Assembly: GCF_023238445.1 (NCBI RefSeq)
Contig: NZ_CP096658.1
Location: 372,001 to 436,000 of the forward strand
DNA length: 64,000 bases
Source: Halorussus gelatinilyticus
GTDB lineage: Archaea > Halobacteriota > Halobacteria > Halobacteriales > Haladaptataceae
Reading direction: 5' to 3'
The notes under the pieces were generated by a model, which was not told the DNA's origin, did no database searches, and was given only the letters and a program-made list of their open reading frames with translations. This document shows, piece by piece, positions 34,160-35,604 of the stretch; positions within the stretch are counted from its first letter, which is position 1; each line of letters starts with the position of its first letter. A program made the translations under genes and the position numbers.

Positions 34160-34243
34160 ATCCCGACCTTAGGTGCCCAGACGTAAGTCGCTCGGGGGCA
34201 GGACTGAATCGGCCACCGAGTTCCTCGGAGGACCGCAGTGTCG

Positions 34244-34489
34244 CTACGTTTCGTCCCGGCGCTTCTCTTTCCCCTTCTCACCGAGGTAATAGCCGAAGAG
34301 CAGGAACAGCGTCATGATGGCGACGACGACGACGTAACCCGGCTCGACGAGGGTATCGAGCGTCGCCTTCTGCGGTGCGAACACGTAGACCCAGCCGAGA
34401 CTTCCGACGAGAAGGACGGTGAAGGCGGCGAGTATCAGTCGAAACGAGGGAGGCCACGAGTCAGTCACGAATCGGAGTTCTCCGCGCAC
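34244..34489 (-). CDS. Small two-helix membrane protein next to the halocin-like gene
   Basis: This 81-residue protein has two membrane helices (FRLILAAFTVLLVGSLGWVYVF and PGYVVVVAIMTLFLLFGYYLG) and a short basic tail (EKGKEKRRDET). It starts with GTG at 34489; a later GTG at 34468 (VTDSWPP) is an alternative. It is divergent from the halocin-like precursor gene and shares its AT-rich promoter region. Whether it has anything to do with immunity is unknown; it could be an unrelated small membrane protein. Confidence 0.5.
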   Translation of the reverse strand: MRGELRFVTDSWPPSFRLILAAFTVLLVGSLGWVYVFAPQKATLDTLVEPGYVVVVAIMTLFLLFGYYLGEKGKEKRRDET

Positions 34490-34608
34490 GTAGAAAAGGA
34501 TTTCTACATATATTAAATTCTATATAGGATAGAAGCAATATAGAAAAATATACTTTTTACTTTGAGAATAGGAAAATTTAATATCCTTCTACGCCACCTG
34601 ATAGTCGG
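34490..34608. promoter_or_regulatory. AT-rich divergent promoter region with inverted repeat
   Basis: This 119-base stretch is far richer in A+T than its surroundings. It contains the inverted repeat GTAGAAA (34490-34496) / TTTCTAC (34501-34507) and several TATA-like runs (CTATATAGG about 34532, ATATACTTTTTACT about 34545, AATTTAATATCC about 34574-34585). The last lies about 25-35 bases before the ATG of the halocin-like gene and is the likely TATA element for it. Confidence 0.5.
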
Positions 34609-35526
34609 ATGTCTGACAAAGAACTCCTCGGCGACGGACTCAACCGCCGTAAATTCACCAAACTAGTTGCTACTTCCAGTACTGCCGTCAGTTTCGGACT
34701 CTCGGGAATTGCCGGTGCTGACGAGGGCAACAGCGACCGAGTCGAACTGCGGAAAGTCGAGAGCGACGCCGAGCAGGACCGAGCGGCCGCCGCCGTGTCG
34801 AGCGAGTACGGCCAGCAGATGGTCTCGGTACTGAACAATCCGACTCCGTTCACCGACGAGGCGAAGCGCGTCGATATCCTCGTCGACGGTGAGCGGATCA
34901 GTCACACCATCGACGTTCCGACCGAAGCCGGTGTGTTGAAGGTCGGTTACGAGGGCGAGACGCCTATCACCGGTCTCTTCGACCTGGACCGGGAAGCGCT
35001 CCCGAAGGGACAGCGCAAGAAGGTCTCGGCGAAGGTCGGTTGGCCAGAGGGGACGTCGGGGTTCCTCGTTCTACACGACCCGTCGGACGAACCGACGTTC
35101 ACCCGTAGCGTCACCGACGAGGAACGGCGAAAGCTGACGGCCCTTACCGGCGAAGACGGGGCTCCCGTTAGCGTCGGTGCGAAAGCGACGCCGCGAGGGT
35201 CTGGCGTGGGCGCGACCGAAGGCGGATACGAAGTCGCGTACGAACACAAGGTCTACCGAATCGACCGGGCGATTCAGACGGTCGAGTCCGTCGAGGAGTC
35301 TTCGGGGGGAGTCTCGATTCAGGGCAAGTGCGTCAACAAGGGGTCGCTGTGCCTCATCGACATCGCGATGGCCTCGCCCCACTGCACGCTGGCGGGAATG
35401 GCGTGTTCGATAACCGGGCCCGCCTCTCTCGGCTGTCTCACAGCAGTCGCGTCCTTCTGTCTCCCCAACATCGCGCTCATCTACGTCTCCGGGAACTGTT
35501 CGTACGTAGCGAAGAACTGCCTCTGA
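34609..35526 (+). CDS. Halocin-C8-like precursor: Tat-exported protein with Cys-rich C-terminal peptide
   Basis: This 305-residue precursor begins with a Tat signal (LNRRKFTKLVATSSTAVSFG, residues 11-30). A cysteine-free middle of about 200 residues follows, then a hydrophobic C-terminal region with all eight cysteines (residues 241, 248, 259, 266, 276, 284, 297, 304). That layout mirrors the halocin C8 precursor, where the N-terminal part gives immunity and the C-terminal peptide (there with ten Cys) is released as a microhalocin. The ratio and order are family knowledge; the cleavage site here (near residue 230-240) is inferred. The promoter is AT-rich. Activity is untested. Confidence 0.75.
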   Translation: MSDKELLGDGLNRRKFTKLVATSSTAVSFGLSGIAGADEGNSDRVELRKVESDAEQDRAAAAVSSEYGQQMVSVLNNPTPFTDEAKRVDILVDGERISHTIDVPTEAGVLKVGYEGETPITGLFDLDREALPKGQRKKVSAKVGWPEGTSGFLVLHDPSDEPTFTRSVTDEERRKLTALTGEDGAPVSVGAKATPRGSGVGATEGGYEVAYEHKVYRIDRAIQTVESVEESSGGVSIQGKCVNKGSLCLIDIAMASPHCTLAGMACSITGPASLGCLTAVASFCLPNIALIYVSGNCSYVAKNCL

Positions 35527-35604
35527 GCGAGAGTTCGGGGCGCACGGCCCGCGAGAACGAGCGTCGACCGACCCGTCCTGTTTCGAATCGTTCGAAGACG
35601 ACTA

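Follow-up and report, generated by a model that had tools for sequence, protein, structure and literature searches.

What does a haloarchaeal gene make when its product has no cysteine over the first 240 residues and eight within the last 65? The question is raised by an open reading frame of Halorussus gelatinilyticus, whose genome is a single contig of 3.67 Mb; the frame lies in the window analysed here, a stretch of 64,000 nucleotides. The first-pass annotation had described it as a 305-residue, Tat-exported, halocin-C8-like precursor behind an unusually AT-rich promoter. As a description of the gene, this was borne out. The frame (34609-35526, forward strand) starts with ATG and encodes 305 residues, and its leader carries a twin-arginine motif (NRRKFTKL...LSGIAGA) without a lipobox cysteine, the twin arginine being invariant among the relatives of the precursor. 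The cysteine count was also correct, with residues at positions 241, 248, 259, 266, 276, 284, 297 and 304 and none before 241; under random placement, eight cysteines would all come to lie within the last 65 residues with a probability of 3e-6. The 100 bases from 34500 to 34599 have a GC content of 24%, against roughly 60-70% in the surrounding DNA. As for kinship, the layout suggested by the name halocin C8 stood and the relationship did not; the relative is halocin S8.

The precursor gene and its cassette

The features of the locus are collected in Table 1. The precursor gene is considered real because full-length homologues occur in other haloarchaeal families: among 293 genomes of the order, two full-length relatives were found, with identities of 34% (L002) and 32% (L003), together with a C-terminal remnant at 65% (L004), the same remnant being present in Natrinema mahii as L041. 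The halocin models of Pfam and NCBIfam do not match the precursor, nor do anti-phage defence models, and a search of the IMG/VR viral contigs found no relatives and hence no viral link. Among solved structures, the precursor sequence had no match (the best E value, 0.14, was to an unrelated stretch of a Rab protein), and the AlphaFold models of the mature protein and of the core reached pLDDT values of 36 and 47, which makes them unusable for fold searches.

Table 1. Coordinates of the precursor, its parts and its neighbourhood, numbered within the window
Feature	Position	Strand	Basis
Precursor gene, halocin S8-type, 305 aa	34609..35526	+	Translation, full-length homologues, hhalign to the halocin S8 (HalS8) group
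Tat signal peptide, residues ~1-36, NRRKFTKL...GIAGA	34609..34716	+	Sequence; cleavage position predicted
Conserved N-terminal pro-domain, residues ~55-182	34771..35154	+	Region aligned by hhalign with the HalS8 precursor; conserved columns
Predicted processing motif VSIQ, residues 235-238	35311..35322	+	Motif enrichment; HalS8 parallel; putative cleavage
Predicted core peptide, residues 239-305, 67 aa, 8 Cys	35323..35523	+	6718 Da computed with four disulfides
AT-rich divergent promoter region with imperfect palindrome 34501-34546	34490..34608		24% GC; inverted repeat
Membrane protein, 81 aa (or 74 aa from GTG 34468), two predicted TM segments	34244..34489	-	Partner homologues; cassette part
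Inserted cassette, about 1.4 kb, between AI-2E-type transporter and MFS transporter genes	34199..35604		Sibling flanks

By comparing the locus with those of sibling Halorussus genomes, the insertion of the cassette can be read directly. In six siblings the flanking AI-2E-type and MFS transporter genes lie only 63-93 bp apart; in five others the gap measures 167-756 bp and holds no homologue of either the precursor or the membrane protein. The conserved strings GCTCGGGGG and TCAGAACAGCGG mark the boundaries of the insert at 34199 and 35604. Between these boundaries only two genes are recognisable, the precursor and the divergent membrane protein, which would move together as a cassette. The AI-2E/MFS gap may be an insertion hot spot. 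At the same gap, three sibling genomes (L117, L120 and L122) have another kind of insert, about 720-760 bp long; it encodes a protein of ~220 residues in which LAGC or FAGC resembles a lipobox. In the AT-rich region that separates the two cassette genes, the inverted repeat is an imperfect 26-bp palindrome and a possible operator.

Kinship with halocins C8 and S8

Halocin C8 (L014) is made as a 283-residue precursor with a 76-residue core of 7.44 kDa (computed), and shares with the Halorussus protein an overall plan of Tat leader, cysteine-free N part and cysteine-rich C-terminal core. This plan is what speaks for the protein as a true C8 family member with a HalI-like immunity domain at its N terminus. 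At the level of sequence, homology was undetectable in either part. TIGR04449, the model of the halocin C8 domain, found nothing in the whole Halorussus genome up to an E value of 10. Similarly, PF22862 (N-terminal/HalI) had no match in the precursor, which lacks any Pfam match, whereas the HalC8 control scores 1.7e-48; and hhalign against the halocin C8 group gave probabilities of 1.3% over the full length, 0.2% for the N part and 1.3% for the C part. In addition, halocin C8 has 10 cysteines at another spacing, a difference that the first-pass annotation had seen correctly; the spacing in the Halorussus tip is 6-10-6-9-7-12-6. The profile comparison with halocin C8 precursors that the annotation had suggested therefore went against its own lead, and membership of the C8 family was rejected as highly improbable. 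TIGR04449 itself has matches in 54 of the 293 genomes (L011-L040), several of them within reading frames that run to about 700 residues.

The relative that did emerge is halocin S8, which was reportedly first described in 2000. Its precursor sequence is matched letter for letter by a plasmid open reading frame of Halobacterium (L071 6001-6936). This frame encodes 311 aa and is 100% identical in strain BOL4-2 and 99.7% in GN101, the producer of halocin R1. The 36-mer of halocin S8 occupies residues 231-266, directly after Q230, with 45 residues beyond it. Since its computed mass, 3581 Da, agrees with the published 3.58 kDa of halocin S8 (PMC8699383), the frame was accepted as the HalS8 precursor. 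Searched against Pfam and NCBIfam, the HalS8 precursor matched no family.

In the profile-profile comparison, the group of the Halorussus precursor aligned with the HalS8 precursor group with a probability of 97.9% at full length and of 96.8% when the N parts were compared, and 60 column-shuffled hhalign controls reached at most 0.3%. Based on this contrast, membership of the precursor in the broad family around halocin S8 is well supported by the alignments. A chain of single-sequence matches leads the same way, from the Halorussus protein to L070 and L088 (E about 1e-3) and from L070, L088 and L091 to HalS8 (E 5e-15 to 3e-21). Both precursors have a Tat leader, a homologous pro-domain and eight C-terminal cysteines, with GP between the fourth and fifth cysteines and PN after the sixth, and in both a Q immediately precedes the (predicted) start of the core. 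On the other hand, the tip sequences and the cysteine spacings are not the same, and the hhalign value for the C parts is 0.4%, the tips being too divergent for a significant sequence alignment. The antimicrobial role of the Halorussus protein is thus argued from the shared pro-domain and layout. The two also differ in that the HalS8 peptide is internal, with 45 residues trailing it, whereas the predicted cut in the Halorussus precursor leaves 67 residues to the end, and in that no two-TM neighbour was found within 700 bp of the HalS8 gene.

Family spread, cysteine pairs and processing

By searching 392 haloarchaeal genomes with a profile built from eight relatives, full-length-grade family matches were obtained in 44; this grade means an E value below about 1e-14, the weaker matches, mostly Tat leaders, being left out. 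Across the family the N-terminal domain is conserved, with the motifs G-x-L, WP-x-GT and F-x-R-x-x-T-D-x-E, and the cysteine-rich C-terminal tip is variable. Tandem copies occur in L049, L063 and L079, the last of which (G241 C17 299-313 kb) has four family genes in about 7 kb, interspersed with a pair of similar small multi-span membrane proteins. In the halophilic archaeon DL31 (L072 3881-8000), a family gene precedes two small membrane ORFs, the ATPase of an ABC transporter and one more protein. Two loci (L074 6535-9783 and L077 3289-6474), one of them on a Halorussus vallis plasmid, encode Tat-signal fusions of about 1060-1080 residues, in which LamG-like or SO2946-like repeats are joined to an S8-type pro-domain and a cysteine-rich tail. 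In Natrinema mahii (L041 5530-6555), the cysteine-rich C-terminal end and the membrane partner are kept and the rest of the precursor is lost. The 68-residue tail of this remnant is 67% identical to that of the Halorussus precursor and retains all eight cysteines; the upstream half of its frame lies antisense to a pyrD-like gene, and a transposase-like ORF is nearby.

The cysteines themselves follow a simple rule. Among 52 non-identical members, the C-terminal block holds 6, 8, 10, 12 or 14 cysteines and never an odd number, and the number is likewise even in all 43 clusters formed at under 50% identity. L002 and L005 have six cysteines each, and both lack exactly the third and sixth positions; L056 has gained two, adjoining the second and the seventh. 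Joint loss and paired gain are what is expected if the cysteines pair, and the counts are evidence, short of proof, that those of the family would be fully paired. The joint absence of the third and sixth cysteines from L002 and L005 suggests a disulfide between these two positions, which would be C259-C284 in the Halorussus precursor.

The release of the peptide can be envisaged from the junction in front of the first cysteine. In the HalS8 precursor the peptide starts directly after the Q of IQLQ/SDC, and the corresponding junction here is GVSIQ/GKC. The pattern [VIL][ST]xQ within 18 residues or fewer of the first cysteine occurs in 11 of 52 members, where 0.84 would be expected, and in 0 of 2000 shuffles; a universal Q-ending cleavage motif is thus only partly supported. 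The genome has 15 matches to PF00082, the subtilase family. A comparable case by description is HFX_0892 (HmHapP) of Haloferax mediterranei, likewise a secreted haloarchaeal precursor, which is activated by extracellular proteases, the halolysins of the subtilase family, and differs in that its active part is an N-terminal helical peptide (PMC12893001). In the preferred explanation, the gene encodes a Tat-exported pro-halocin of the S8 family, whose acidic pro-domain is probably removed after export by a secreted protease near the putative VSIQ/GKC cleavage site. The released product, hydrophobic, slightly cationic and tied by four disulfides, would be a peptide of ~67 residues (6.7 kDa) or some shorter part of that peptide; its target may be the membrane of competing haloarchaea.

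The membrane partner, immunity and the reading of the locus

In L002, in L003 and at the Natrinema remnant (L004/L041), a homologue of the small membrane protein directly adjoins the family gene. As the pair is kept in four of the four closest loci, in two different arrangements, the membrane protein becomes a candidate immunity or partner protein, which would most likely protect the producer or aid release of the peptide. In a wider scan for ORFs of 45-140 residues with at least 2 hydrophobic segments within 900 bp, such neighbours were found beside 27 of 53 family genes and 15 of 112 control genes taken from random stretches of the same genomes (Fisher p 6e-7), and, in a further likeness to the C8 system, beside 17 of 25 genes of the halocin C8 family (p 1e-7); these p values are too optimistic, because the members of a family are related. 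Homologues of the partner occur in 18 further genomes, and in 11 loci checked from these genomes none (0/11) had a halocin-family gene within 1.5 kb. A strict tie of the partner to halocin genes was rejected on this count. Since its homologues also occur without a recognisable halocin gene nearby, the partner may have another role; the lone copies would fit orphan immunity genes and, equally, a family of other function.

Immunity might instead reside in the N-terminal pro-domain. This would be a variant of the preferred explanation rather than an alternative to it, and it has a precedent in HalI of halocin C8, which is reported to be an immunity factor from the N-terminal part. Such a role agrees with the conservation of the pro-domain, which is higher than that of any other part in the family, and with the scan, in which half of the members had no small membrane neighbour. 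Against this stand the lack of homology to HalI (0.2% for the N part in hhalign) and the Natrinema copy, beside which the partner persists although the pro-domain is gone, as a retained immunity gene would. We regard immunity through the pro-domain as rather doubtful, and the small membrane protein as at least as good a candidate. A more distant reading makes the precursor a secreted cysteine-rich protein without antimicrobial function, for example a peptide that serves at the surface, in signalling or as an enzyme inhibitor. A surface role would agree with the fusions in which the same domain is joined to LamG-like or SO2946-like repeats, and killing is ascribed to the peptide only by deduction. 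However, halocin S8 itself belongs to the family, the distribution is patchy and mobile with tandem variable copies, and small membrane partners are typical of bacteriocins; a function other than antimicrobial is consequently unlikely.

The finding is, then, an acquired cassette of two genes, one for an S8-type precursor whose eight-cysteine tip is divergent and the other for a candidate immunity protein. With good though not full confidence, we read the whole as a cassette for a possibly protective membrane protein and for a relative of halocin S8, an antimicrobial peptide that is secreted and tied by disulfides. One hypothetical gene is now tied to halocin S8, within a family that is widespread and modular, and this S8 family now has a specific candidate for its immunity protein. 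Neither Pfam nor NCBIfam has a model that covers the S8 family or the HalS8 precursor, and the copies found here are annotated as hypothetical proteins; with a profile from the S8-type family, many further candidates for antimicrobial peptides of archaea would come to light. More tentatively, and at somewhat under even chances for the idea taken as one, halocin S8 may be just one of the tips in a large, modular system of archaea, in which a shared exported pro-domain would carry highly variable disulfide-rich killing peptides. The forms of this system would be stand-alone cassettes, each with its own small membrane protein for immunity, tandem arrays and large repeat-protein fusions, and membrane protein genes found alone would serve for immunity only.
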